IMG/VR virus record: IMGVR_UViG_3300009183_000433 | Span: 1-20,746 of that record | Strand: one strand, 5' to 3' | Source: a virus | Length of the DNA: 20,746 bases | In this document: positions 7,954-18,847 of the stretch, in pieces | Numbering within the stretch: the first letter of the stretch is position 1 | Layout of the letters: each line of letters begins with the position of its first letter | The notes under the pieces: generated by a model | Told to the model about the DNA's origin: nothing | The model's database searches: none | The model's input: the letters and a program-made list of their open reading frames with translations, nothing else | Translations under genes and position numbers: made by a program

Positions 7954-8257
7954 CGAACAATCCCACGACCCAACAGTCACGCTCCGCCTGGAGCTTGGCC
8001 GAGTCACCGATCAGCGCAACGCATACGAAGCCGCACTCCGCAAGGAAGTGCTGATCGTCATCCGAGAAGCCGCATCCGAAAACGCCTACCTAAAGGCCGA
8101 GGTTATTCGTCTAAAGAATAACTGTGAATACCTTGACCAGAAGCTGGACGAGGAGATTGAACGCTCGGCTTCATTCGCCGGCGAGGTATCCAGGCTGAAC
8201 GACGCCATTATGACCGGCAACGCCATCACCCCGGACGCTAGGGAGGTGCAATCGTGA
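7946..8257 (+). CDS. Small coiled-coil protein, unknown function
   Basis: 103 residues, highly charged and predicted by eye to be mainly helical, with heptad-like spacing across residues about 15-85 (LELGRVTDQRNAYEAALRKE, then LKAEVIRLKNNCEYLDQKLDEEIERS). No transmembrane segment or signal peptide is visible, so a spanin role is not supported. It overlaps the terminase-like gene by eight bases and ends in a GTGA overlap with the next coding region. The last codons carry a strong SD for that gene. Function unknown; scaffolding or assembly help is conceivable from position only. Confidence 0.72.
   Translation: MNNEQSHDPTVTLRLELGRVTDQRNAYEAALRKEVLIVIREAASENAYLKAEVIRLKNNCEYLDQKLDEEIERSASFAGEVSRLNDAIMTGNAITPDAREVQS
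8242..8247 (+). promoter_or_regulatory. Strong Shine-Dalgarno GGAGGT deciding a GTG start
   Basis: GGAGGT lies six bases before GTG 8254. Further SD-like sites support the next starts: GGAG (8424-8427) before GTG 8439, a GGGAGG-type run just before ATG 8645, and GGAGGG (8790-8795) seven bases before ATG 8803. This block shows that the host ribosome can use SD pairing, in contrast to most other genes in the window. Confidence 0.75.
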
Positions 8258-9512: not shown

Positions 9513-9962
9513 ATGGACATCGTACTGCTTAACATCGAAGGCACACCCAGGCCGCAACCCAGGCCGAGGTTCGTGGGTGGCAGGGTGGTATCGACAGCCG
9601 ACGCCAATGCACGCATGTGGAAGGATCTAGTGACGAAGGCCGGCAAGATGGCCGCAGACGCACATGGTCAGATCCAGGCGCCGGCTGTCGCAGTCGTCAT
9701 GCGTTTCGATATGCCCACGACCAAGGCAGACCGGCACGGCCTACCCCATACCTTCCGCCCAGACGCAGACAACCTAGCCAAGCTTGCACTCGATGCAGTC
9801 ATGGACGCCGGCCTGCTCAAGGATGATGCCGCAGTCTCGACCCTAGTGGTGACCAAGACATGGGCAGACAAGGGCGGTCTGGTGATGACCCTGCACTTGG
9901 ATGAACGCACCCCCACCCCCACCCCACCCCCATCGTCTAGGTTCCCGGGCTGGATACAGTAG
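9513..9962 (+). CDS. rusA: RusA-family Holliday junction resolvase
   Basis: 149 residues. The N terminus IEGTPRPQPRPRF (8-20) is the RusA G-x-P-x-P-K/R-P-R signature. The catalytic region FRPDADNLAKLALDAVMDAG (81-100) supplies D84 and D86, with further acidic residues D104/D105 in KDD and K115 in VVTKTW. This matches the family order (PD-x-DN-x-x-K, then DD, then K). RusA dimers cut four-way junctions; in phages they resolve recombination or replication branches before packaging. The last 20 residues are an unusual Pro/Thr tail (TPTPTPPPSS) encoded by a C-tract. The gene stands alone between the repeat-rich noncoding region and a convergent minus-strand cluster, with a terminator hairpin just past its stop. 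Confidence 0.9.
   Translation: MDIVLLNIEGTPRPQPRPRFVGGRVVSTADANARMWKDLVTKAGKMAADAHGQIQAPAVAVVMRFDMPTTKADRHGLPHTFRPDADNLAKLALDAVMDAGLLKDDAAVSTLVVTKTWADKGGLVMTLHLDERTPTPTPPPSSRFPGWIQ
9910..9931 (-). other. G-quadruplex motif on the minus strand (C-tract on plus)
   Basis: The plus strand reads C5-A-C5-A-C4-A-C5, so the minus strand holds four runs of at least four guanines separated by single T bases. Single-base loops favour a stable parallel quadruplex, and the plus strand could form an i-motif. It lies in the last codons of the RusA-like gene, just before the terminator, where two transcripts converge. Confidence 0.75.
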
Positions 9963-9971
9963 GAACAAGAA

Positions 9972-9993
9972 GGCCAGCCGGTGAGGGCTGGCC
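9972..9993. terminator. Hairpin terminator at convergent junction
   Basis: GGCCAGCC (9972-9979) pairs with GGCTGGCC (9986-9993) around a six-base loop, ten bases past the RusA-like stop, followed by GTTT on plus and by TTCTTGTT on minus. A second hairpin, AGGGCC/GGCCCT (10011-10016, 10022-10027), lies just beyond the minus-strand stop. The T tracts are short, so efficiency is uncertain, but position between converging genes supports a two-way terminator. Confidence 0.6.
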
Positions 9994-10031
9994 GTTTAGA
10001 TCTATCCAGGAGGGCCGTGGCGGCCCTTGGG

Positions 10032-10550
10032 CTATGCGAACCAAGTGGTGGTGCCGGTACCCCCAAGCCGCTGGCGTGCGTCGTCGTAACGCTTGGCCCA
10101 ACACTCAAACTCCATTCGGTCAAGGGCGTCTGCCCAACCCTCAAGGGCGTAGCCGGCGACCTGCTCGATGATGTCGAGGTGGTCTGCCGCCTCGGCCTGG
10201 GATAGGGTGACCTGGCCGGCTGTGGCAAAGGACATGGCAAACGCATACTCGTCTTTCCCGATATAGGTCTGCACCATATCGACCTTGCGGCACCAGCATT
10301 CGTATCCGGTGAGGGAGCGAAGCTTGGCGAGGCAGGCGAGGGCGGCCTTCTCATGCATGGCCGCCGTGTCCAGGCCGTGGTCCAGGGACAGGGTGACAGA
10401 GGCGGGGCGGTGCGACATGTCGTCGGTCAGCCAAGCCTTGACCCTGGCGCCCCGGGCAGGGGTGGGCGGGAGGAAGCGGGTGCGGATCGCTCGGGCGGAA
10501 CGGCGGACAGTAGTGAGGCCGTCCGGGGTGATGGTGGTATTGTCGGGCAT
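10032..10550 (-). CDS. Minus-cassette protein 1, unknown function
   Basis: 172 residues. It opens with MPDNTTITPDGLTT, almost the same start as the neighbouring 111-residue protein. After a basic stretch (VRRSARAIRTRFLPP) I see by eye a strand (ASVTLSLDHG), a helix (AAMHEKAALACLAKLRSL), two strands (KVDMVQTYIG, YAFAMSFATAG) and a long helix (SQAEAADHLDIIEQVAGYALEGW), i.e. a beta-alpha-beta-beta-alpha order. No known family is recognised. The leader contains AACCCAATACCCACACCC directly before ATG and no SD. It is the last gene of the minus-strand series and is followed by two hairpins. Confidence 0.72.
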   Translation of the reverse strand: MPDNTTITPDGLTTVRRSARAIRTRFLPPTPARGARVKAWLTDDMSHRPASVTLSLDHGLDTAAMHEKAALACLAKLRSLTGYECWCRKVDMVQTYIGKDEYAFAMSFATAGQVTLSQAEAADHLDIIEQVAGYALEGWADALDRMEFECWAKRYDDARQRLGGTGTTTWFA

Positions 10551-10579
10551 GGGTGTGGGTATTGGGTTAGGGTGAAAGG

Positions 10580-10915
10580 TTAGGCGATAGTCACCTCAAG
10601 TTTGGAGACGCATAGGAAGTCCGGCATGTAGAGGATGCCGGCGTTGTTAGCCTCAAGGCACAGGGCGGCAGGGGACATGTCGTCGCCCTCGTAAGGTTCG
10701 ACCTCGACCTCAAACTCCACGACGATGGTGGTGCCAATGATGTCCGGGGTAGACCAGCGGATGTCGCCCACGATGAAGCGACCGCCCTCAAGGGACAGGC
10801 AATCGCCGTCGTCGCCGAGGTGGTCGTCGAGCATGAGCAGGTCGTCGCAGGTGCAGGGCTTGCCGTCGTCTCGGGTGACATAGAAGACGAGGGCGATGGT
10901 GGTGGTGTCGGGCAT
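10580..10915 (-). CDS. Minus-cassette protein 2, acidic, two beta-alpha-beta units
   Basis: 111 residues, strongly acidic. By eye the order is strand (TTTIALVFYVTRDDG), helix (CDDLLMLDDHLG), strand (GRFIVGDIRW), strand (GTTIVVEFEVEVEPYEG), helix (MSPAALCLEANNAG), strand (SKLEVTI). This beta-alpha-beta-beta-alpha-beta order is that of a ferredoxin-like fold, though short sequence alone cannot prove it. Cysteines at CTC near residue 21-23 and two later ones are not arranged as a known metal site. The start region (CCCAATACC, ATG, CCCGAC) nearly copies that of the 172-residue protein. Function unknown. Confidence 0.74.
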   Translation of the reverse strand: MPDTTTIALVFYVTRDDGKPCTCDDLLMLDDHLGDDGDCLSLEGGRFIVGDIRWSTPDIIGTTIVVEFEVEVEPYEGDDMSPAALCLEANNAGILYMPDFLCVSKLEVTIA

Positions 10916-10934
10916 GGTATTGGGTGGTGAGGGT

Positions 10935-11285
10935 TTAGGAAAGCTTGGAAAGGATGACCGGCATGGCGGCCCTAGCGAGGGCTTCCTCGTCAGCGGTGTC
11001 GAAGGCAGGAGGATCTACAGGGTCGGCCAATTCGGCGGCGGCCTGCTCGACTGCGTCGAATAGGGATTCGCCTCGGTTCATGTGCATGACAATCCTGGCC
11101 TTGCCGCCCCAATACTGGACGACCAGCGTACGCTCGGCGTCGATGCGGGGAGCGTCGAAGTTGCGCAAAATATCGACGGCGTCGGGATCGTCGAGCAGGC
11201 GGTGAACCATCGGGGCTTTGTCTCGCCACTCGCCGGCGTATTCGATGCCGACGAGGATGGCGTTGGGGAGGTGTTCGATATTCAT
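10935..11285 (-). CDS. Minus-cassette protein 3, unknown function
   Basis: 116 residues, acidic. Visible features: a strand (NAILVGIEYAGEW), a helix (APMVHRLLDDPDAVDILRNF), two strands (RTLVVQYWGG, KARIVMHMNRG), a helix (SLFDAVEQAAAELAD) and a final helix (TADEEALARAAMPVILSKL). No motif of a known family is seen. The leader differs from its neighbours (TATCCCATCCT before ATG) and is short. The repeated TTGACA-containing element (11307-11329) lies about 21 bases upstream of the start, so a new transcript may begin here within the cassette. Confidence 0.72.
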   Translation of the reverse strand: MNIEHLPNAILVGIEYAGEWRDKAPMVHRLLDDPDAVDILRNFDAPRIDAERTLVVQYWGGKARIVMHMNRGESLFDAVEQAAAELADPVDPPAFDTADEEALARAAMPVILSKLS

Positions 11286-11306
11286 AGGATGGGATAGGAA
11301 GGGATG

Positions 11307-11329
11307 CCTACAGATTGGAGGGTGTCAAG
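11307..11329 (-). promoter_or_regulatory. Repeated TTGACA element, copy A
   Basis: On the minus strand this reads CTTGACACCCTCCA, then two variable bases, then CTGTAGG. Copy B (12748-12770) matches it at 21 of 23 positions. Each copy lies 20-35 bases upstream of a minus-strand start codon. TTGACA is the consensus -35 hexamer, but TAGGCA (TAGGAC in copy B) follows after only 12 bases, short for a standard sigma-70 promoter. It may be a promoter, an operator, or both. Confidence 0.5.
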
Positions 11330-11449
11330 TTAGAGTTTGGGGTTGTCGATAATTTCCAGCAGGCTAGGCCCGGTCGCAAACGCCCAGAGGACGAAGGCGA
11401 TGAGGGCGGCCAGCATGAGGGCGATGGCGATGGTGCGGAGGGTGGACAT
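11330..11449 (-). CDS. 39-residue single-pass membrane protein
   Basis: 39 residues, MSTLRTIAIALMLAALIAF followed by VLWAFATG and a short polar tail (PSLLEIIDNPKL). Residues about 6-25 form one clear transmembrane helix with a single Arg before it, suggesting the N terminus stays in the cytoplasm. There is no SD; the leader is AAGCTTTTCTCCCT before ATG. Its stop lies directly next to repeat copy A. Possible roles include a holin-like or superinfection-related membrane peptide, but no evidence favours one. The clean hydrophobic segment and its place within a regular gene array make chance unlikely. Confidence 0.6.
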   Translation of the reverse strand: MSTLRTIAIALMLAALIAFVLWAFATGPSLLEIIDNPKL

Positions 11450-11477
11450 AGGGAGAAAAGCTTGGGCTTGGTTTAGA

Positions 11478-11885
11478 TCAGATGCCGGCGGCCTTGAGGC
11501 CGATGGCAACCTTGCCGGTGATGAGGGTCATGGCCTGGCCTGCCTTGGCATAAACCTTGCGGGCGGCGGCGTACTCCTTTGCGTACTGCTCGCAGTCCTC
11601 GGGCGAATGGTCGCAGTCCTCGCCGTGGTCGGCACGCTCGGCCTCGCCGGCGTAGTGTTCGGTCATCTCTTCCATGTCCCCCTCTGCGGCGTCGCAGACA
11701 TGGCGACCCAGCAGGGCCAGCATGCGGACGAGGTCGCCGGCGTGGCGTGCCTCGCAACCGCTGTCGTGGTAAGCCTCCAGGGCGGCGTCGGCCAGGATGG
11801 CCTCGGTCTTGGGGTGGTTAAGCACCTCCACCAGTAGGGTGGCGAGGCGGCCCGAAAGGGCGTTGACTGACTTGGGTTTGCTCAT
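11478..11885 (-). CDS. Minus-cassette protein 5, helical, unknown function
   Basis: 135 residues from ATG 11885, which is directly preceded by CCCAACACC. A longer in-frame reading upstream (to 12095) crosses the next gene in another frame and is rejected. The protein looks all-helical: VNALSGRLATLLVEVL, TEAILADAALEAYHD, AGDLVRMLALLGRHVCDAAEGD, EDCEQYAKEYAAARKVYAKAG. The stretch HGEDCDHSPEDCEQ (88-101) clusters His, Asp and two Cys (C91, C98) and could bind metal, but this is speculative. The leader contains the palindromic element 11897-11913. Family not recognised. Confidence 0.74.
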   Translation of the reverse strand: MSKPKSVNALSGRLATLLVEVLNHPKTEAILADAALEAYHDSGCEARHAGDLVRMLALLGRHVCDAAEGDMEEMTEHYAGEAERADHGEDCDHSPEDCEQYAKEYAAARKVYAKAGQAMTLITGKVAIGLKAAGI

Positions 11886-11896
11886 GGTGTTGGGAT

Positions 11897-11913
11897 AAAG
11901 TTTGCGCAAAGTT
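11897..11913. promoter_or_regulatory. Palindromic leader element TTTGCGCAAA, copy 1
   Basis: AAAGTTTGCGCAAAGTT with the perfect palindrome TTTGCGCAAA at 11901-11910. The same 17 bases recur exactly at 13330-13346. Both copies lie in leaders of minus-strand genes, 11-24 bases before ATG, between the preceding stop and the CCCAACACC start motif. A dimeric repressor site or a conserved RNA element are both possible. Confidence 0.55.
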
Positions 11914-11916
11914 TGG

Positions 11917-12240
11917 TTAGATTCGGACATGGGTGACAGGCACCATGCGGATGGTGCGGAGGTTGAATGCGACGAGGCATGCCATCGCCTCCTGCCGGCA
12001 ACCCTCGGCCTCTTCACGCTGGGCGATAGATCCGTACCGGTCAGCGTCCAGCACCCGACGCTGGCACAGGGTGACATGGGCCTGGAGCATGGCACGCTCG
12101 GCGGCGTTGGACTGGGCGATGGAGCGGGCGATGCCGTCGGCGGTGGCGTTGGCCGCCGGCGTACCGATGGCCCGGAGGGCGGCGACTTCCGCCTTGGCGG
12201 CGGCGTGCTGGTGGGGGGACATGATGGTGGGGTCGGACAT
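11917..12240 (-). CDS. Minus-cassette protein 6, alanine-rich, unknown function
   Basis: 107 residues from ATG 12240. It is alanine-rich and mostly helical (QHAAAKAEVAALRAIG, TADGIARSIAQSNAAERAML, then RYGSIAQREEAEGCRQEAMA), ending with a short strand (LRTIRMVPVTHVRI). An in-frame ATG at 12315 would overlap the next gene's coding end. The start at 12240 is preferred because its leader AACCCTTCACCACATCACC resembles the others. No SD and no recognised family. Confidence 0.68.
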   Translation of the reverse strand: MSDPTIMSPHQHAAAKAEVAALRAIGTPAANATADGIARSIAQSNAAERAMLQAHVTLCQRRVLDADRYGSIAQREEAEGCRQEAMACLVAFNLRTIRMVPVTHVRI

Positions 12241-12260
12241 GGTGGTGATGTGGTGAAGGG

Positions 12261-12716
12261 TTACTTGAGGATGTCGCAAGACATGTTGCATGCGTACTCC
12301 TCGATGCTCCCGCACATGGCGTCTTCCATGAGGGACTCGATGTCATCCATGACCGACTTCTCGGCGGCCTGGCGGGTGGTGGCATCGACGATGAATGCGG
12401 CCATCAGTTTGAACGACACAGTCCAACGGCCCTCGTCGTCGCCGTCGGACTCGGGGCCATTGTCATCGACGCTGATGTCCCGGATGGTGATGCAGTTTGC
12501 CATAGCGGCGATGCTCTTGTCGAGCGTGCCGTCTCGGCGTTTGTCGGTGGCCGGTGCGTCGAGCAGGGACTCCAGGTGCGTGCGGCAGGAGCGGAGAGCC
12601 TCGGCGTCGGTCATGTAGCCCTTGCCGGTGTCCTCATACCTGTCGATATGAATGCGGACGATGACGGCGTAGGTGTTGGTGTTGCTGGTGCTGGTGCTGG
12701 CTTTGGTTTTTTTCAT
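12261..12716 (-). CDS. Minus-cassette protein 7, two beta-alpha units, unknown function
   Basis: 151 residues. After a Ser/Thr/Lys-rich start (MKKTKASTSTSNTNT) there is a strand (YAVIVRIHIDRY), a helix (DAEALRSCRTHLESLLD), a strand (NCITIRDISVDD), an acidic loop (NGPESDGDDEG), a strand (RWTVSFKLMAAFIVDA) and a helix (RQAAEKSVMDDIESLMEDA). The two halves look like repeats of one beta-alpha-beta unit, most clearly ...HLESLLDA against ...DIESLMEDA. Leader: ACCCAACACCCAGCACC directly before ATG, with repeat copy B about 31 bases upstream. Function unknown. Confidence 0.75.
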   Translation of the reverse strand: MKKTKASTSTSNTNTYAVIVRIHIDRYEDTGKGYMTDAEALRSCRTHLESLLDAPATDKRRDGTLDKSIAAMANCITIRDISVDDNGPESDGDDEGRWTVSFKLMAAFIVDATTRQAAEKSVMDDIESLMEDAMCGSIEEYACNMSCDILK

Positions 12717-12747
12717 GGTGCTGGGTGTTGGGTGAGAGGAGTGATGT

Positions 12748-12770
12748 CCTACAGGGTGGAGGGTGTCAAG
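12748..12770 (-). promoter_or_regulatory. Repeated TTGACA element, copy B
   Basis: Second copy of the element at 11307-11329, with GG (plus strand) in place of AT at the two variable positions. The minus-strand TTGACA is at 12764-12769 and TAGGAC follows 12 bases later. It lies in an 87-base gap (12717-12803), the largest space inside the cassette, consistent with an internal transcription start. Confidence 0.5.
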
Positions 12771-12803
12771 GGTTGACTTTGGGGGCGAGCTAAAACGGAT
12801 CGG

Positions 12804-13082
12804 TTAGACGATGTGACCAGCGGCGTCGAGGGCTTGCTTACCGGCGTCGATGGTGTCGCACAGGTCGCCAGGCAGGAAGGTGTCCTGCTGGCCCCGAGCG
12901 GTGAAGTAGCGGACGGCGTCCTCGCCCTGGAGCGGGCGGGTCATGGGGTTGCCGTCGTTTTCGAGCAGGCCGATGGCGGTCAATTCCTGGAGGGCTGCGG
13001 TGGCGGCCTTCTGGTGCCGGAGGAAGGCGGCGACGGCACGCCGAGCGGCGGCCTGCTGTTGGCGGTGAGTGAGCATGGTCAT
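12804..13082 (-). CDS. Minus-cassette protein 8, unknown function
   Basis: 92 residues. The N-terminal half is a long basic helix (THRQQQAAARRAVAAFLRHQ, then KAATAALQELTAIGLL), and the second half contains PMTRPLQGEDAVRYFTARGQ and a final helix (DTIDAGKQALDAAGHIV). The shape suggests a small winged or helical-bundle protein, but no DNA-binding motif is convincing. The leader is AACCCCCACCACACCCGCACC before ATG in essence, C/A-rich without SD. Two ATGs six bases apart begin the protein (MTM); either could be used. Confidence 0.68.
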   Translation of the reverse strand: MTMLTHRQQQAAARRAVAAFLRHQKAATAALQELTAIGLLENDGNPMTRPLQGEDAVRYFTARGQQDTFLPGDLCDTIDAGKQALDAAGHIV

Positions 13083-13111
13083 GGTGCGGGTGTGGTGGGG
13101 GTTGGTTTAGA

Positions 13112-13306
13112 TCAGAGGGTGGTGGTGGTGGTGTTGTCCAGGTCGGCGTCGAAGCGGATGCGGGTGACGCCGGCGGTGGCGTCGGTCAAGGCACGGCGGG
13201 TGCCACGCTCGGCGGCGACGAGCAGGTCGTCGAGGGCCACCATCGGGTCAACGCTGGGGGCGGTGTCGATGGTGAGGGTGATGGTGATGGTGGTGCGGGT
13301 GGTCAT
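13112..13306 (-). CDS. Minus-cassette protein 9, single beta-alpha-beta unit
   Basis: 64 residues from ATG 13306, preceded exactly by CACCCAACACC. Layout by eye: a Thr/Ile strand (TTITITLTIDTAP), a helix (DPMVALDDLLVAAERGTRRA), a strand (GVTRIRFDADLD) and a Thr tail (NTTTTTL). It looks like half of the 111- and 151-residue cassette proteins, which seem to contain this unit twice. It may dimerise to complete the fold. A longer in-frame start upstream (13597) crosses the neighbouring gene and lacks the leader motif. Function unknown. Confidence 0.66.
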   Translation of the reverse strand: MTTRTTITITLTIDTAPSVDPMVALDDLLVAAERGTRRALTDATAGVTRIRFDADLDNTTTTTL

Positions 13307-13329
13307 GGTGTTGGGTGCTGGGTGGGTGA

Positions 13330-13346
13330 AAAGTTTGCGCAAAGTT
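13330..13346. promoter_or_regulatory. Palindromic leader element TTTGCGCAAA, copy 2
   Basis: Exact second copy of the 17-base element at 11897-11913, palindrome at 13334-13343. It begins within the stop codon of the upstream minus gene (13345-13347 on plus) and sits 24-40 bases before ATG 13306. Exact identity over 17 bases in two separate leaders, while the neighbouring coding regions differ, argues for function. Confidence 0.55.
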
Positions 13347-13677
13347 AGGCGGTCAAGGCTGGCTTGCCCTTGATGGCCCGATGGGCCTGGCCCATTGCAA
13401 AGCCAGCCACCACGAACATCTCGCCCATAGCGTCGCCCTTGTCGTCGTCGTGGTCGAACACCCCGGACTCGGCGAGAGTGCCGAGGCGGTGTTCCATGTC
13501 GCCCGCGACATCGAGCAGGAGGGTGAGGGCGGCGGCCTGCTGGCGGTGGTGGGCGAGCAGGATGTTGACGGCGGCCAGGTCGGCCTCGCCGAGGCACCCG
13601 AGGGCGGGGTCGGTGAGGGAGCCAGGGCCGGTGAGGAGCCGCAGGGCGGCCTTGATGGTGGTGGGGGTGGTGGTCAT
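13345..13677 (-). CDS. Minus-cassette protein 10, helical, unknown function
   Basis: 110 residues from ATG 13677, with CCCAGCACCACC directly upstream. It begins MTTTPTTIKAALRLL. Helices are visible at EADLAAVNILLAHHRQQAAA, LTLLLDVAGDMEHRLGTLAE, and MGEMFVVAGFAMGQAHRAIKG; between them is an acidic SGVFDHDDDKGD loop. The GDME and D/H-rich loop order faintly resembles the 135-residue cassette protein (EGDMEEM, then HGEDCDHS), so distant relation is possible. A 244-residue reading that extends to 14079 in the same frame fuses antisense-like sequence and is rejected. Confidence 0.72.
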   Translation of the reverse strand: MTTTPTTIKAALRLLTGPGSLTDPALGCLGEADLAAVNILLAHHRQQAAALTLLLDVAGDMEHRLGTLAESGVFDHDDDKGDAMGEMFVVAGFAMGQAHRAIKGKPALTA

Positions 13678-13738
13678 GGTGGTGCTGGGTTTTTGGTGGT
13701 GGAAAAGATCGAGCCGGGGCGTGCTGGTGCTGGTAGGT

Positions 13739-14107
13739 TTAGCGGTTGAGCAGGGCGGCCAGGTTGCGGAGTTTGCTGGAGTGGCTGGCGGGGCGAATCG
13801 CCTGGCGACGCTCCGCAGGCGTCGACCTACGCTCCGCCGGCAGGGTGCGGGCCATGTCGTCGAGCAGGGTGACGGCGGCGTTGAGGTCGGCGAGGGCGGC
13901 GTCGTCGAGGCCGAAGGCCGGTGCGGCGTCATTACGCTCGGCGTGGCCGAGCAGGGCGAGCCGGAGGTCGAAGGCCAGGACAGCCTGGCGTGCGGCCTTG
14001 AGGGCGGCCTCGTTTGCCGGCGTGCGGCTGAAGTGGTACCTGTTGCGGGCGTCGTGGTAGGCGGCGGCGAGCGTGGCACGGTGGGCGGTGTTGTCGGTGG
14101 TGGTCAT
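13739..14107 (-). CDS. Minus-cassette protein 11, helical, unknown function
   Basis: 122 residues from ATG 14107, preceded by CCCAGCACCACCCAGCACC, a doubled copy of the start motif. The chain is helical and alanine-rich: TAHRATLAAAYHDARNRYHF, NEAALKAARQAVLAFDLRLA, DAALADLNAAVTLLDDMART, then a basic end (PAERRSTPAERRQAIRPASH and SSKLRNLAALLNR). The repeat PAERR appears twice within this end. No family is recognised. A 61-base leader separates its stop from the next gene downstream. Confidence 0.72.
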   Translation of the reverse strand: MTTTDNTAHRATLAAAYHDARNRYHFSRTPANEAALKAARQAVLAFDLRLALLGHAERNDAAPAFGLDDAALADLNAAVTLLDDMARTLPAERRSTPAERRQAIRPASHSSKLRNLAALLNR

Positions 14108-14143
14108 GGTGCTGGGTGGTGCTGGGTGGTGGATGGGAAAGGG

Positions 14144-14578
14144 TTAAGCCTTGGGGTGGTGGATGCCGGGGATGTCGATGGACAGCAGGCCGCACCGAGA
14201 GCAATGTTCCAGGTCATCGAGGATGTCCTCCAGGGCGTCGAAGCCAGAGCAGCCCGGAGTGGACATGAAGTCGCCGTCCTCGTCCTGGGTGTCGTCGTCG
14301 GCGTCGTCGGCGACAAACCAGCCCATGACCGCCTCGGTGCGGAGGACGGCGTCCCGGGTGTCCGGCGTCATGCTGGTGAACCAAGCCTTGGCGGCGTCGA
14401 GGGTGACGAAGCAGGCCGTGGGGCCGAAGTCGAAGTCCTTGAGGCAGGCGTCGTCGGGATACTGGGCGGCCCACTTGCGGGCCAGGTGCTGGCCCATGCG
14501 GAGGCCGACGATGTCGGGGGTGGAGCCGAACCGAGCCTGGAGGGCGGCGGTGATGGCGTTGAGGTGTTCGTTGGTCAT
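14144..14578 (-). CDS. Minus-cassette protein 12, possible zinc site, first gene of the series
   Basis: 144 residues. Helical start (NEHLNAITAALQARFG), PDIVGLRMGQHLARKWAAQY, then a segment CFVTLDAAKAWFTSMTPDTR, an Asp-rich linker (DDADDDTQDEDGD, 91-103), and a C-terminal HCSRCG (125-130) followed by HH at 140-141. C126, C129, H140 and H141 could bind zinc, though a single CxxC is weak evidence. As the first gene of the minus series it should be nearest the main promoter. Its leader is AACCCAATAAACACCGCACC then AAAAACGCC before ATG, with no SD. Function unknown. Confidence 0.74.
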   Translation of the reverse strand: MTNEHLNAITAALQARFGSTPDIVGLRMGQHLARKWAAQYPDDACLKDFDFGPTACFVTLDAAKAWFTSMTPDTRDAVLRTEAVMGWFVADDADDDTQDEDGDFMSTPGCSGFDALEDILDDLEHCSRCGLLSIDIPGIHHPKA

Positions 14579-14909
14579 GGCGTTTTTGGTGCGGTGTTTA
14601 TTGGGTTATGTCGGTTAGGACATCACCCAACATGCACACCTAGTCGCCCGGCACAAGGATATATTTACAAAAACTTTTCTGCCCCACCCAGCCCCGCCTC
14701 GCTCCCAACGGTTACGCATGCGAGAGCATGGCGTCGTCGTGGCGTCCAGGCTGGGCGTGTCGGCGTCGCACCCGGGCGGAGCGGCGTCACCCCTCGTCGG
14801 CGACGGCGACAGGCCAGGCGGTCAGCCAGGCGGCGAGCATGGCCGGCGTCGGGTGCCAAGGCCGGAGTGATGACGCAGGTGCATGCGTCCTAGTCGCACG
14901 CATGACGAT

Positions 14910-14936
14910 CACGCACGCACGCACATGTGCGTACGC
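14910..14936. repeat. Alternating purine-pyrimidine tract with 14-base palindrome
   Basis: Every base from 14910 to 14936 alternates purine and pyrimidine (mostly CG and CA steps), the pattern that favours Z-DNA under negative supercoiling. It contains the perfect palindrome ACGCACATGTGCGT at 14919-14932. Confidence 0.7.
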
Positions 14937-15051
14937 CACCCACGCACACGCCCACCCCCGCCCACGCACCCGCTCGCTCGCGAGAATTCCTATCCTCCCC
15001 CGCTCGGAAAAATCCGTGTATGCAAAAAACTTTCTCCTACATCGCCATCTC

Positions 15052-15080
15052 TTGCATCTATAGCCGGACTGGTACACTAT
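15052..15080 (+). promoter_or_regulatory. Candidate promoter for the tail-terminase-portal series, possibly leaderless
   Basis: TTGCAT (15052-15057), a 17-base spacer, then CACTAT (15075-15080), six bases before ATG 15087; alternatively TACACT (15073-15078) with a 15-base spacer. No SD or CCCAAC motif precedes the ATG. The geometry matches the RusA-like gene. A start of transcription at or near the A of ATG would give a leaderless message. Confidence 0.45.
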
Positions 15081-15086
15081 CCGCAT

Positions 15087-17246
15087 ATGAGTCAGCCTCC
15101 TGCTCCTTTCGACCGCACCTGGTCCTTCACGGATTTTAGCCAAAGCAACCCTACTACGCCCCACCAGGGGCAGAAAATCGACCAGGAGTTGAACAATGCC
15201 CGCACGGCAATCAACGCCACCATCTCCCGGCTGGGTGAAATCCAGGCAGACGATGGCAAGATCCGCACGACTGCTCTGAATCTGGCTGTTATTGCCGAGG
15301 AGGTTGAACCGTTGCTCACGGACGCTCCTGTACAAGCCGTTGAGGCTGCCGGCGCAGCCCAGATTGGACTGGTTAACGACGCTGGTGACGCCAAGGTAGC
15401 TGAACTGGAGGCTGTTCTTACCTCCCAGAACGCACTTGATGCGATTGCCGCGCGAGACGCTGCACAGTCTGCCGCAGATTCTGCTGCTATCGCCAATAGT
15501 CAGTCAAATAACTTTGCGATGTTGGCGCAAGGCTACTCGATTACCGCCGTACAGGCGAAGAATTCAGCCCTAGTCCACGCCAACACGGCAGAAGCTGCCG
15601 TTGCTACGATCCAGGCGGCTAATTACGCCAACGCATCACACACCCACTCAATCAGCAACGTAACTGGACTACAGTCGGCGTTGGACGGTAAGTATTCGGT
15701 CAACAATCCTGCCGGATACATCACCAGTTCTGCGCTGACAGGCTACCTCACCGACGCTCCCAGCGACGGATCTTCCTATGGCCGCAAGGACGGAGCGTGG
15801 GAAGTTATTGGTAGTGGTTCTTACCTGCCGCTGGCAGGTGGTACGATGACTGGCAACATCACCTTCGATGGTACGTCCGGCCAGTTCATCGGCAAGGGTC
15901 AGTTCGACACGTCTCGCGGCGGAAACTACGGCATCAGCCTGGTTTGCTCCATCGGCTACGAATTCAACTGGCAGGCAGGATGGCTGACGACGACCAACCA
16001 AGGTAGCTCCACTCCTCGTCCGCTCTACCTTGACTCCCTGGCAGGAACGACTCTCCGCAGCTGGGACAGCGCCAACGACAGGGGTGTGGAGGTTGCACAT
16101 ACTGGAATCAATGTAGCCAACATCGCACCAGAGTACGTTAATATCACGCCTCCTCTGATTAAGGTCTTCGAGAACATCAACGAACTGGGCGTCTCTATCG
16201 CCCACGACTCGATTGCCATCCAGCACATCGACACTCCGAACGTCACGGCGTACATGACGAACGAATACATCGGCTTTGAGGATATGGGTGGGACGCCTCA
16301 CTCCGCGTGGATCGAGCATGACGTCATCACGGTCCAGGATGAGACAAGGAACACCCAGATGCGGGCGAGTGGTGTCATCGCAACTGGCCCAGAAGGACAG
16401 GTATCCTATTCAAATACTGCCGTCGATATTGCTGGACCAGTTGACCCATTGCACGATCCTGCCGTTGCTCACTTGAAGGTTGACGGTCTTGAGTTTCGAT
16501 TGATGGACGATGTCCCTGCCGCAACCTACGCCGCTTCCGGCATCACCTTCCCGGACGGTTCAATCCAGACTACGGCAACTCTCACAGGTCCGCAAGGCGA
16601 CCAAGGTCCGCAGGGCAACGATGGCCCTCAAGGTCCGCCTGGAAGCAACGGCAACGATGGCGGTTCTTTTTCAGATGCAATGTACGACGGCACTCCATAC
16701 GTCCGCATCAATCAGTCTTGGCAACCCCTGTCGAACTACGACCAGCAAGGTGGCGGTGGCATTGGTGATGCACCTGCTAATGGAACTGCGTATGTTCGTT
16801 ACAACAACGACTGGCAACCGTTCTCCAATTTTGACCAAAACAGCGGTGGCGGTGGTGGTTGGAGTTATGACTTTTCTGCAATTGTTTCAAGTCTGACCAA
16901 TGGTGCGACATCTTCTATCAACGGAAGTCAGCCAAGTAGTGGACAGGTTTTAAAGTATGACGGTGGGCAGCTTATTTGGAGTTGGGACAATGAAGGTATG
17001 GGCGGTAGCCAAGGTCCGCAGGGCGACCAAGGTCCGCAAGGTCCGCAAGGCGAACAAGGTCCAAGTGGCGGAAATTTTGGCGATGCTCCTAACGACGGTA
17101 CATCCTATGTCCGCATGAACGGTAGTTGGTATCAAACCTTTAGGGACTTCACCCCTTACAACGCCAGCGGCGACCCATTCTATCCCTACGAGGTTAAGAT
17201 AACCGTCAACGGCACGGACTACTGGATGCCTGTCCGCCAGGCGTAA
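15087..17246 (+). CDS. Collagen-like phage tail fibre protein
   Basis: 719 residues from ATG 15087. The N terminus ([20 protein letters not shown], 8-27) with [15 protein letters not shown] (28-42) is a virion-attachment type head seen in phage tail proteins. An Ala-rich helical region (80-180) and tail-fibre repeats [20 protein letters not shown] (184-203) and [12 protein letters not shown] (486-497) follow. Two collagen-like Gly-x-y stretches lie at 501-526 and 643-662. A tryptophan motif (DAPxDGxxYxRxxxxW) occurs four times near 223-238, 530-545, 561-576 and 666-681. These shafts and knobs suit trimeric receptor-binding fibres. An in-frame start at 14883 would add proline-rich, antisense-like sequence and is rejected. 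The stop overlaps the terminase start as TAATG. Confidence 0.88.
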
Positions 17247-18847
17247 TGGCTCGCAAGGCACCCAACGCCGAAGAGAAACGAAGGCAGGCCGAGATTGCCG
17301 AAGTAGAGGCGCAGCTATCTGCCGCCCAGCGGCTGCTCCGCGTCAAGATGGCAAGGGAGTCGCTCATCTCTTTCACCGGCATGACCATGCCAGACCCGGA
17401 AGATCCGGACAACGTAGACAAGTCAAGATACCAGCCGGTCAAGCACCACGAAACTATATGTGCGGCCCTGGAGCAGGTTGAGAAGGGTATGTACCAGCGT
17501 CTGATTATCTCCATGCCACCTCGACATGGTAAGTCCGAACTGGCGTCGCGTCGTTTCCCTGCCTGGTTCTTGGGCAAAGACCCATACCGACAGGTCATCT
17601 TCGCCACCTACAACGCGGACGTGGCGCAAGACTTTGGCAGATCCGTGCGTGAGATTATGCGTTCTCCTGCATACAAGCAGGTCTTCCCTGGCTGTAAGCT
17701 GCGTACCGGCAGCCAGTCATCGGACAAGCTCCAGACCGAGGAAGGCGGACTAGCCAACTTCGTTGGCGTGGGTGGCGGTCTTACTGGCCGTGGTGCTGAC
17801 CTACTGGTCATCGATGACCCGATCAAGGACCGCGAGGAGGCAGACTCCAAGCGAGAGCGTGACAAGCTATGGGAGTGGTTCACTCAAGTGGCTATGACCC
17901 GACTGATGGCCGGCGCCAGGGTGGTAATCATTATGACCCGGTGGCATGAGGATGACCTAGTGGGTCGCCTCACCGACCCAAAGAATCCCTGCTACAACGA
18001 CGAGAACGCACAGGCTTGGCGTATCCTGGCATTGCCGGCGATCGCCGTGGAGAACGACCCTATGGACCGACCAGTCGGTCAAGCCCTATGGCCGGAACGC
18101 TACGGATTGGACTTCCTTAACGAGATTCGCCGGCTGAACGCCAAAGGCTTTTCGGCCTTGTACCAAGGCAAGCCTACACCCGACGACGGTGACTTCTTCC
18201 GCCGCGACTGGTTAAAGCCCTACCCTCACGAACTGCCCAAGAACCTCCGATACTACTGCGTATCAGACCATGCCGTGTCTACCGCCCAGACGGCTGACAA
18301 GACCGTGCTGATGCCATTCGGCCTAGACGAGGAAGACAACGTGTCGATTTTGCCGGACGTGTGGTGGCGTCGAGCGTCTACCGACCAGGTCATCGACGGC
18401 ATGATCGACTTGATGTCCCGGCATAAGCCTGCCAAGTGGGGTGCAGAACGCGGTCATATCTCCCAGTCCATCGGTCCGTTCCTCCGTAAAGTCCAGCAAG
18501 AGCGGGGCATCTGGACGGTCGTTGAGGAGATTACCCCTGTGAAGGACAAGCAAACACGCGCACAGGCGATCCGTGGACGCATGGCAATGGGCAAGGTATT
18601 CTTCCCCAAGTTCGCCCCCTGGTGGGCAGACGCTGAAACCGAAATGCTCAAGTTCCCATCTGCCAGACACGATGACTTCGTGGACGCTATGGGTCTGGTC
18701 GGCCTGCTGTTAAGTAGCATGGTAAGTGCAGCCAGAACCTACGAAAAGCCATCAGATATCCCCAAGAGCGGAACCCTAGCCTGGGTCAAGCTATCCGGCA
18801 AGTGGGACGAGGCACGACGCAATCTCTTGCAGATGGGCGGCTTCTGA
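17246..18847 (+). CDS. terL: Terminase large subunit
   Basis: 533 residues. The ATPase domain has Walker A PPRHGKSE (91-98), Walker B LLVIDD (186-191), and the coupling motif MTRWHEDDL (230-238). The nuclease half carries D341 in VSDHAV and the HDDFVDA cluster (475-481), fitting the RNase H-like active site of packaging terminases. Together they translocate DNA into the prohead through the portal and cut the concatemer. An N-terminal coiled-coil-like stretch (AEEKRRQAEIAEVEAQLSAA and beyond) may contact the small subunit. The start overlaps the tail fibre stop by one base (TAATG), so translation is probably coupled. The portal gene begins 15 bases after the stop. Family is certain; packaging type (cos or headful) cannot be read from sequence alone. 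Confidence 0.96.
   Translation: MARKAPNAEEKRRQAEIAEVEAQLSAAQRLLRVKMARESLISFTGMTMPDPEDPDNVDKSRYQPVKHHETICAALEQVEKGMYQRLIISMPPRHGKSELASRRFPAWFLGKDPYRQVIFATYNADVAQDFGRSVREIMRSPAYKQVFPGCKLRTGSQSSDKLQTEEGGLANFVGVGGGLTGRGADLLVIDDPIKDREEADSKRERDKLWEWFTQVAMTRLMAGARVVIIMTRWHEDDLVGRLTDPKNPCYNDENAQAWRILALPAIAVENDPMDRPVGQALWPERYGLDFLNEIRRLNAKGFSALYQGKPTPDDGDFFRRDWLKPYPHELPKNLRYYCVSDHAVSTAQTADKTVLMPFGLDEEDNVSILPDVWWRRASTDQVIDGMIDLMSRHKPAKWGAERGHISQSIGPFLRKVQQERGIWTVVEEITPVKDKQTRAQAIRGRMAMGKVFFPKFAPWWADAETEMLKFPSARHDDFVDAMGLVGLLLSSMVSAARTYEKPSDIPKSGTLAWVKLSGKWDEARRNLLQMGGF

Follow-up and report, generated by a model that had tools for sequence, protein, structure and literature searches.

In phage lambda, Cro acts at PL and PR, and ral, gam and kil are anti-defence or takeover genes of the PL operon; Aca proteins repress the promoters of anti-CRISPR (acr) genes. 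To our knowledge, Acr proteins share no common sequence. In the literature, acr genes are described as clustering and anti-defence islands as occurring in mobile elements (PMC7648647), and plasmid leading regions as carrying anti-defence genes (PMC11541004). This report deals with an array of twelve small minus-strand genes, g1 to g12, at positions 10032-14578 of the IMG/VR virus record IMGVR_UViG_3300009183_000433. The whole record (20,746 bases, classified as a linear and probably partial sequence) is called the window. The array is a variable accessory region on the opposite strand, with conserved flanking genes and a variable content of small genes, and it is probably an early, Cro-repressed accessory operon of tailed phages of about 45 kb, with host takeover and counter-defence as the likeliest jobs.

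Like the lambda PL operon, the array is opposed to the replication operon, is apparently of the early type and has variable accessory content, and its promoters share an operator with a cro-like promoter, the cro side being seen in relatives. Unlike lambda PL, its products include no homologue of N, Ral, Gam or Kil in Pfam, PHROGs or NCBIfam, no CI-like repressor was recognised, and the operator is CCTMCA-N3-TGTMGG, placed on two or more internal promoters. The acr-aca operons are similar in their small unrelated proteins, in a promoter-overlapping inverted repeat and in a helix-turn-helix (HTH) protein presumed to shut them off; they differ in that the array has no recognised internal HTH gene (neither Pfam nor PHROGs gave an HTH match among g1-g12, and no aca-type gene was seen inside the array), its candidate regulator lies in another operon and no Acr homologue was recognised. 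The anti-defence leading regions and islands described in PMC11541004 and PMC7648647 resemble the array as bounded clusters of small, fast-changing and presumably early genes at a fixed place, with the difference that the array belongs to a phage, not a plasmid, and has no known counter-defence homology. Because the array lacks the content that defines both, it is filed under neither the lambda PL nor the acr-aca type, although it appears to work like one or the other.

Gene content and turnover of the array

The twelve open reading frames (ORFs) encode 39-172 amino acids (aa) and all start with ATG. An earlier reading of the letters alone (the sequence-only reading) had given the same outer coordinates and sizes, and its description of many products as acidic agrees with an isoelectric point (pI) of 5.3 or less in seven of the twelve. 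The GC content of third codon positions is 0.75-0.94 in the array genes vs 0.59-0.78 in plus-strand genes of known frame, and the C content of the same positions is 0.53-0.82 vs 0.28-0.53. Purifying selection against relatives was identified in g12, g8, g9, g11 and g7, the nonsynonymous and synonymous rates (dN/dS) against the relative G003 being 0.042/0.435 for g12, 0.094/0.386 for g8 and 0.060/0.375 for g9. The exceptions are g1 and g3 with dN/dS near 0.8, a value to be read with the compression of dS by codon bias in mind. An antisense ORF of 509 aa is broken by stops in relatives, where the array frames tested are unbroken; another of 238 aa is open in relatives too, yet it lies antisense to well-conserved minus-strand genes. 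The array frames are more than chance ORFs, and codon usage, dN/dS mostly below 1 and the keeping of the frames in relatives speak against untranslated frames, a doubt that the sequence-only reading had itself raised.

A search with the terminase of the window (17246-18847) gave 80 loci in viral contigs. The relatives, labelled here with G or L and a number, are uncultured and mostly freshwater phages, tailed and of about 45 kb. The presence of the array was scored where the record covers the stretch from the RusA-like gene to the tail-fibre and terminase genes, and an opposite-strand array of small genes was identified between these genes in at least 15 other records. The arrays of the relatives comprise 197 predicted proteins, which form 45 multi-member families and 40 singletons; the family counts are approximate, as the genes were called by a simple codon-usage caller that joins or splits some array genes (e.g. 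GP88 in G005), and a few of the 197 come from minus-strand genes in G012 and G013, which were afterwards judged to have no array. These two records (L110 and L112, respectively) were dropped with two minus-strand genes by RusA that resemble, by eye, a small terminase and a lysozyme-like gene. Genes of both kinds are on the minus strand in G012 and G013 and on the plus strand in the window.

Turnover at the locus, which the sequence-only reading had proposed to compare between relatives, is rapid. The clearest case is G002, with terminase and portal about 99% identical to those of the window: it shares 14 of the 17 plus-strand genes vs one of the 12 array genes (Fisher p 1.2e-4; p 1.5e-3 when only plus-strand genes under 200 aa are taken). 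The figures for G014 are 15/17 vs 4/12, and those for G003, the nearest complete relative, 17/17 vs 9/12, which is not a significant difference. The array is also mosaic gene by gene, g2 being at 98% to G001 and 53% to G003, and g3 at 78% and 91%, respectively. Beyond this group, megablast of the window against phage records gave no match. The closest annotated phages by terminase are Microcystis phage Mae-Yong1326-1 (50%) and Rhizobium phage RHph_N65 (45%), both with a different layout.

Promoters, operator and start sites

A repeated element, TTGACAC-CCTCCANNCTGTAGG, was identified in array gaps across records, and in it the inverted repeat CCTMCA-N3-TGTMGG lies directly 3' of a TTGACA box. 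This repeat is a predicted operator common to arrays of different records and is new here. The window contains only two exact cores, both on the minus strand: CCTCCA-CCC-TGTAGG at 12748-12762, between g5 and g6, with its TTGACA box at 12769-12764, and CCTCCA-ATC-TGTAGG at 11307-11321, between g9 and g10, with its TTGACA box at 11328-11323. In 17 array segments there are 19 exact sites, all of them in gaps and 11-50 bp upstream of an array gene start, with none in about 100 kb of coding DNA, and shuffles gave a mean of 0.04 exact operators with a maximum of 1. The aligned promoters are composed of TTGAC(A/G) and the repeat, often with CATACC or CACAAC beyond. When a matrix is trained with the window left out, the two array sites are the only strong ones that it picks up there (scores of 17.6 and 17.2, the next being 6.5).

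The operator is shared with other promoters of these phages. A matrix made from array sites alone ranked the array promoters first in three complete genomes and the promoter of a cro-like gene 4th, 4th and 2nd; the matrix scores of array and cro-like promoters are 12.9 or more, a level that random DNA reaches about 1-3 times per Mb. The divergent integrase promoter also carries the repeat in G009, G010 and G016, where the integrase has a family match, adjoins cro and has its N-terminus read by eye. In G003 one more opposite-strand gene has the same core upstream of it, and an oppositely facing small gene of putative HTH type has a variant of the core upstream. Both G003 (L117 9396-9605) and G015 contain, at the place that the integrase has in G009, G010 and G016, a 69-aa opposite-strand gene under the operator; its product, which gave no family match, has by eye some likeness to a small histone-fold protein. 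Outside the array and the cro-like promoter, G002 (L115 3129) and G003 (L118 4764) have additional strong operator-like sites, which possibly mark other regulon members.

The TTGACA box with CCTMCA-N3-TGTMGG, followed by a G-poor start site, is a signature that marks array genes and can be searched as TTGACA-N1-4-CCTMCANNNTGTMGG no more than 60 bp from a start codon. Since it was confined to array gaps in the island segments scanned, it allows further members to be gathered from uncultured phages and tested as a set. Small early genes of unknown role are one of the main sources of new proteins for anti-defence and host control, and which of them form a set can usually not be told. A different element, the exact palindrome TTTGCGCAAAC, is present twice on the minus strand in array gaps of the window, at 11900-11910 (g7-g8) and 13333-13343 (g3-g4), a number that none of 100 shuffles reached; possibly it is the site of a second regulator.

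The start sites of the array are uniform. The sequence-only reading had called the start regions similar, and the likeness is stronger than was claimed: none of the 12 genes has a motif like that of Shine-Dalgarno (SD), and the share of G is 4.6% in the 20-nt leader and 7.9% in codons 2-8 vs 28% in the rest. The folding energy of the start (±30 nt) is -1.2 vs -17.9 kcal/mol in mid-gene (p 4e-5), plus-strand genes of the window being intermediate (-8.6 vs -14.3 kcal/mol). The start regions are C/A-rich, unstructured and G-poor, with a native leader of the form CCCAGCACC-ATG, and the pattern recurs in most relatives; the cro-like genes have, by eye, the same leader, CCCAACACC or CCCAACGCC. ACA motifs act as translation enhancers in enteric bacteria, where SD-independent initiation is promoted by repeats of ACAA (PMC3879156). 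Start signals of the ACA type would account for the likeness of the start regions noted in the sequence-only reading and for the Thr-rich N-termini of the products, and SD-less initiation of this type may operate in the host of the window phage. Such uniform starts are a natural system for the study of phage mRNA initiation without SD pairing. Overlapping plus-strand genes, as at 8254, 8439 and 8645 of the window, have SD-like leaders (e.g. GGGAGG), and gapped genes tend toward CCCAAC-ATG leaders, which gives two start signals in one genome.

The candidate regulator and the probable role of the array

The cro-like gene encodes a small protein, a putative HTH regulator of Cro/YdaS-like type, and heads the oppositely directed replication operon of relatives, which comprises Sak4-like, DUF669-like, helicase and Cas4-like exonuclease genes. 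A homologue was identified in 14 of 23 records, and the recognition-helix region, KTIEKW, is invariant or nearly so. One such protein, of 94 aa, is encoded at L117 8980-9261. In G003 the gene precedes the helicase, which in the window stands at the very start, by about 2 kb. The terminase, portal, helicase and primase of those relatives are about 87-99% identical to those of the window.

In the proposed mechanism, host RNA polymerase would read the array from the divergent region upstream of g1 and from at least two internal promoters, and transcription would run toward the terminator ahead of the RusA-like gene. In the array promoters the inverted repeat would have the TTGACA box on one side and the presumed -10 region on the other; most likely the Cro/YdaS-like regulator binds it and shuts the array off once the replication genes are on, and the same protein may also control its own promoter and that of the integrase. 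The products would be translated from the SD-less start sites described above. TTGACA promoters overlapped by an operator common to cro-like and integrase promoters fit what is expected of an early, repressible operon. As for the products, turnover, context and size suggest their functions, takeover and counter-defence being the likeliest jobs because array content turns over quickly and the flanking genes do not. An early array of takeover or anti-defence genes had already been put forward in the sequence-only reading; it is strengthened in part, by a separate bounded unit, by the rapid turnover at a fixed locus, by TTGACA promoters overlapped by a shared operator and by kin of the g12 N-terminal domain in small-gene arrays of unrelated phages, and for the products it stays a probability. 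The common repeat offers a regulator-target pair that can be tested.

Several observations weigh against an early Cro-repressed operon with these jobs. The cro-like gene is outside the window record, beyond its left end, and the link comes from relatives. Its HTH assignment is based on weak profile matches (YdaS in 5 of 11 members and P22_Cro in 2 of 11), with values of 0.0032 for YdaS, 0.029 for P22_Cro and E 0.03 for HigA-2 of the PDB. The main promoter upstream of g1 has a degenerate operator in the window; a perfect one is present in the divergent region at the g1 end in G002, G004, L040 and G010. The -10 boxes are not recognisable with an E. coli-type consensus, and a scan for the sigma-70 consensus found nothing. 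The arrays of G011 and L056 have no exact operator and present a different repeated motif, TTTGCGCTTGCAACCC, on the promoter side of array genes. Three relatives encode an integrase, so the regulation could concern lysogeny. No array product matched a known anti-defence or takeover family. Finally, the nearest terminases in genomes, by profile scan, are at 52% or less and mostly alphaproteobacterial (Devosia, Rhizobiales), which names no host; a first genome scan for a host with the terminase had found none.

Among the alternatives, a general accessory region of mixed ordinary roles (DNA metabolism helpers and small structural or injected proteins), in which early expression would be incidental, is unlikely but retains some credit. 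None of the products has an assigned function, and the clear Pfam matches among 70 array proteins representing the families of relatives are neutral (DUF7227, GP88 and DUF1281_C); the same proteins matched nine PHROGs, none of them described in the table. Against it, neither the window array nor the 70 representatives gave a match to a family of structural, replication or packaging type. The sequence-only reading had named clear structural or replication matches as evidence against its own view, and it stands on this point.

Rather less credible is a lysogenic-conversion (moron) operon, a prophage-expressed cassette under immunity control that would give the lysogen fitness or superinfection immunity. 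The opposite strand, the own terminator and the variable cargo would suit it, as would the integrase under the same repeat in G009, G010 and G016, and g9 resembles a small membrane protein, a type to which many exclusion proteins belong. The integrase, however, was not found in G002, G003, G005, G006 and G014, all with the same kind of array, and morons usually comprise one or few genes, not 11-17. Moreover, with a repeat common to the cro and integrase promoters, a lysogen repressor would silence the array too.

More doubtful still is that a host regulator of stress or SOS type binds the repeat, with the array and the cro and int promoters responding to the state of the host. The spread of the repeat over several phage promoters is regulon-like, the Cro-like protein is a presumed binder of it, and the operator at the cro promoter is imperfect in G007, G009 and G016. 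Nevertheless, the repeat tracks the cro-like gene: no good site lies near cro in G012, G013 and G020, whose homologues are more distant, and the array of G011, where no cro-like homologue was found, lacks exact sites. The nearly invariant recognition-helix region of the cro-like proteins also argues for a phage regulator. Phage HTH genes under autoregulation usually have their binding site in the promoter from which they are expressed. The weakest alternative, that the frames are not genes and are by-products of high GC, can appeal to the long chance ORFs that GC-rich DNA gives on both strands and to the 238-aa antisense ORF open in relatives, and is highly improbable given the codon usage, the frame conservation with dN/dS below 1 in most genes, the strict start-site design and an array position kept in 15 records.

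Array proteins, flanks and hammerhead sequences

The first gene of the array, g1 (14144-14578; this and all following genes to g12 on the minus strand), encodes an acidic protein of 144 aa (pI 4.3, family F2) with the motif GWF..D.DGDFxSTPG..EHCSRxGLL. It is followed by g2 (13739-14107, 122 aa, basic with pI 10.3, family F11), g3 (13345-13677, 110 aa, family F1) and g4 (13112-13306, 64 aa, acidic and Thr-rich, family F25), the latter at 98% to G001 and in no other relative. No kin among the other array genes called were identified for g5 (12804-13082, 92 aa) and g10 (10935-11285, 116 aa, acidic). The two operator-bearing promoters are directly upstream of g6 (12261-12716, 151 aa, acidic with pI 4.6, family F3 in 8 records) and upstream of g10. 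The only array gene of the window in common with G002 is g7 (11917-12240, 107 aa, family F8). The remaining genes are g8 (11478-11885, 135 aa, family F7), g9 (11330-11449, 39 aa, family F4 in 6 records, one membrane-spanning stretch predicted by eye), g11 (10580-10915, 111 aa, very acidic with pI 4.1, family F6) and g12 (10032-10550, 172 aa, family F0 in 11 records), which has a PHROG 3199-like N-terminal domain and a helical C-terminal domain.

The sequence-only reading had recognised none of the products. This remains true of function, as Pfam, PHROGs and NCBIfam assigned none to g1-g12, and is amended for g12, related through residues 20-104 to PHROG 3199 (E 1.2e-5), a family itself of unknown function. 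In the same searches g8 had a weak match to a family of unknown function, and g9 a weak match, below the cut-off, to Pfam Mycobacteriophage_TM. Relatives of the g12 N-terminus are single small genes in unrelated phages, where they lie amid small hypothetical genes: one in Rhizobium autographivirus RHph_I20 and a weaker one in E. coli vequintavirus A73; by fold, further relatives of g12 are present in other phages. The AlphaFold2 model of g1 (pLDDT 78) has two uncultured-phage homologues by Foldseek and none with Z of 2 or more among 96 PDB chains, and that of g12 (pLDDT 60) has a best PDB Z of 3.5, too weak to use. Thus the profile and structure searches that the sequence-only reading had advised, with profiles of g1-g12 and models of g1 and g12, gave no function. 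Single-protein scans with g1, g8 and g12 found few loci each, partly in records already in the set.

Type II hammerhead sequences were identified in array gaps, on the array strand, of five relatives: G008 (L106), G009 (L107 4461-4519), G010 (L108 4664-4717), L036 and L056. All five sequences contain the permuted core intact (GAAA, a UH cleavage site and CUGANGA) and three paired, covarying stems, with both stem sides changed across the five. By sequence they qualify as type II hammerheads and are predicted ribozymes, although two of them score 28.4 and 25.4 bits with Rfam Hammerhead_II, below the gathering score of 37. A hammerhead pattern search and an Rfam search of the window gave nothing. 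A. tumefaciens has a triple hammerhead arrangement flanking its anti-restriction gene ardA (PMC3088659). As a speculation that we hold to be improbable, the array and its regulator would be a programme for takeover that uses a start signal peculiar to it, where the C/A-rich, G-free and SD-less sites would keep early mRNAs translated during a block of SD initiation by phage or host, and the hammerheads of relatives would split the polycistronic mRNA into segments under separate regulation.

The array is closed by a predicted intrinsic terminator on the minus strand at 9972-9993, GGCCAGCC-CTCACC-GGCTGGCC and a T-rich tail. The sequence-only reading had placed a terminator here; the hairpin is present and has equivalents in the relatives, a hairpin, mostly with a T-run, ending the array in 14 of 14 records checked, although by pattern count alone the one at 9993-9972 is not above shuffles. 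Next to it, and convergent with the array, is the conserved left flank, a RusA-like endonuclease gene on the plus strand (9513-9962; PF05866 E 2.2e-14, phrog_140 E 5.7e-21). The right flank is a plus-strand tail-fibre-like gene (15087-17246) with a fibritin C-terminal part and collagen repeats. With its start taken at ATG 15087, the divergent noncoding region of 508 nt between g1 and this gene (14579-15086), also claimed in the sequence-only reading, is real. Upstream of g1 this region has a conserved A/T-rich tract and then a TTGNNN box. Its 14690-15060 stretch is GC-rich, with many GCGTACGC and GCGTGCGT repeats and hairpins, is of similar character in relatives and could hold an origin or a packaging site. 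Finally, GATCTAAA is found on the minus strand at 10002, 11479 and 13113, at or just past the stops of two array genes and before the terminator, and recurs in gaps of G001 and G003.

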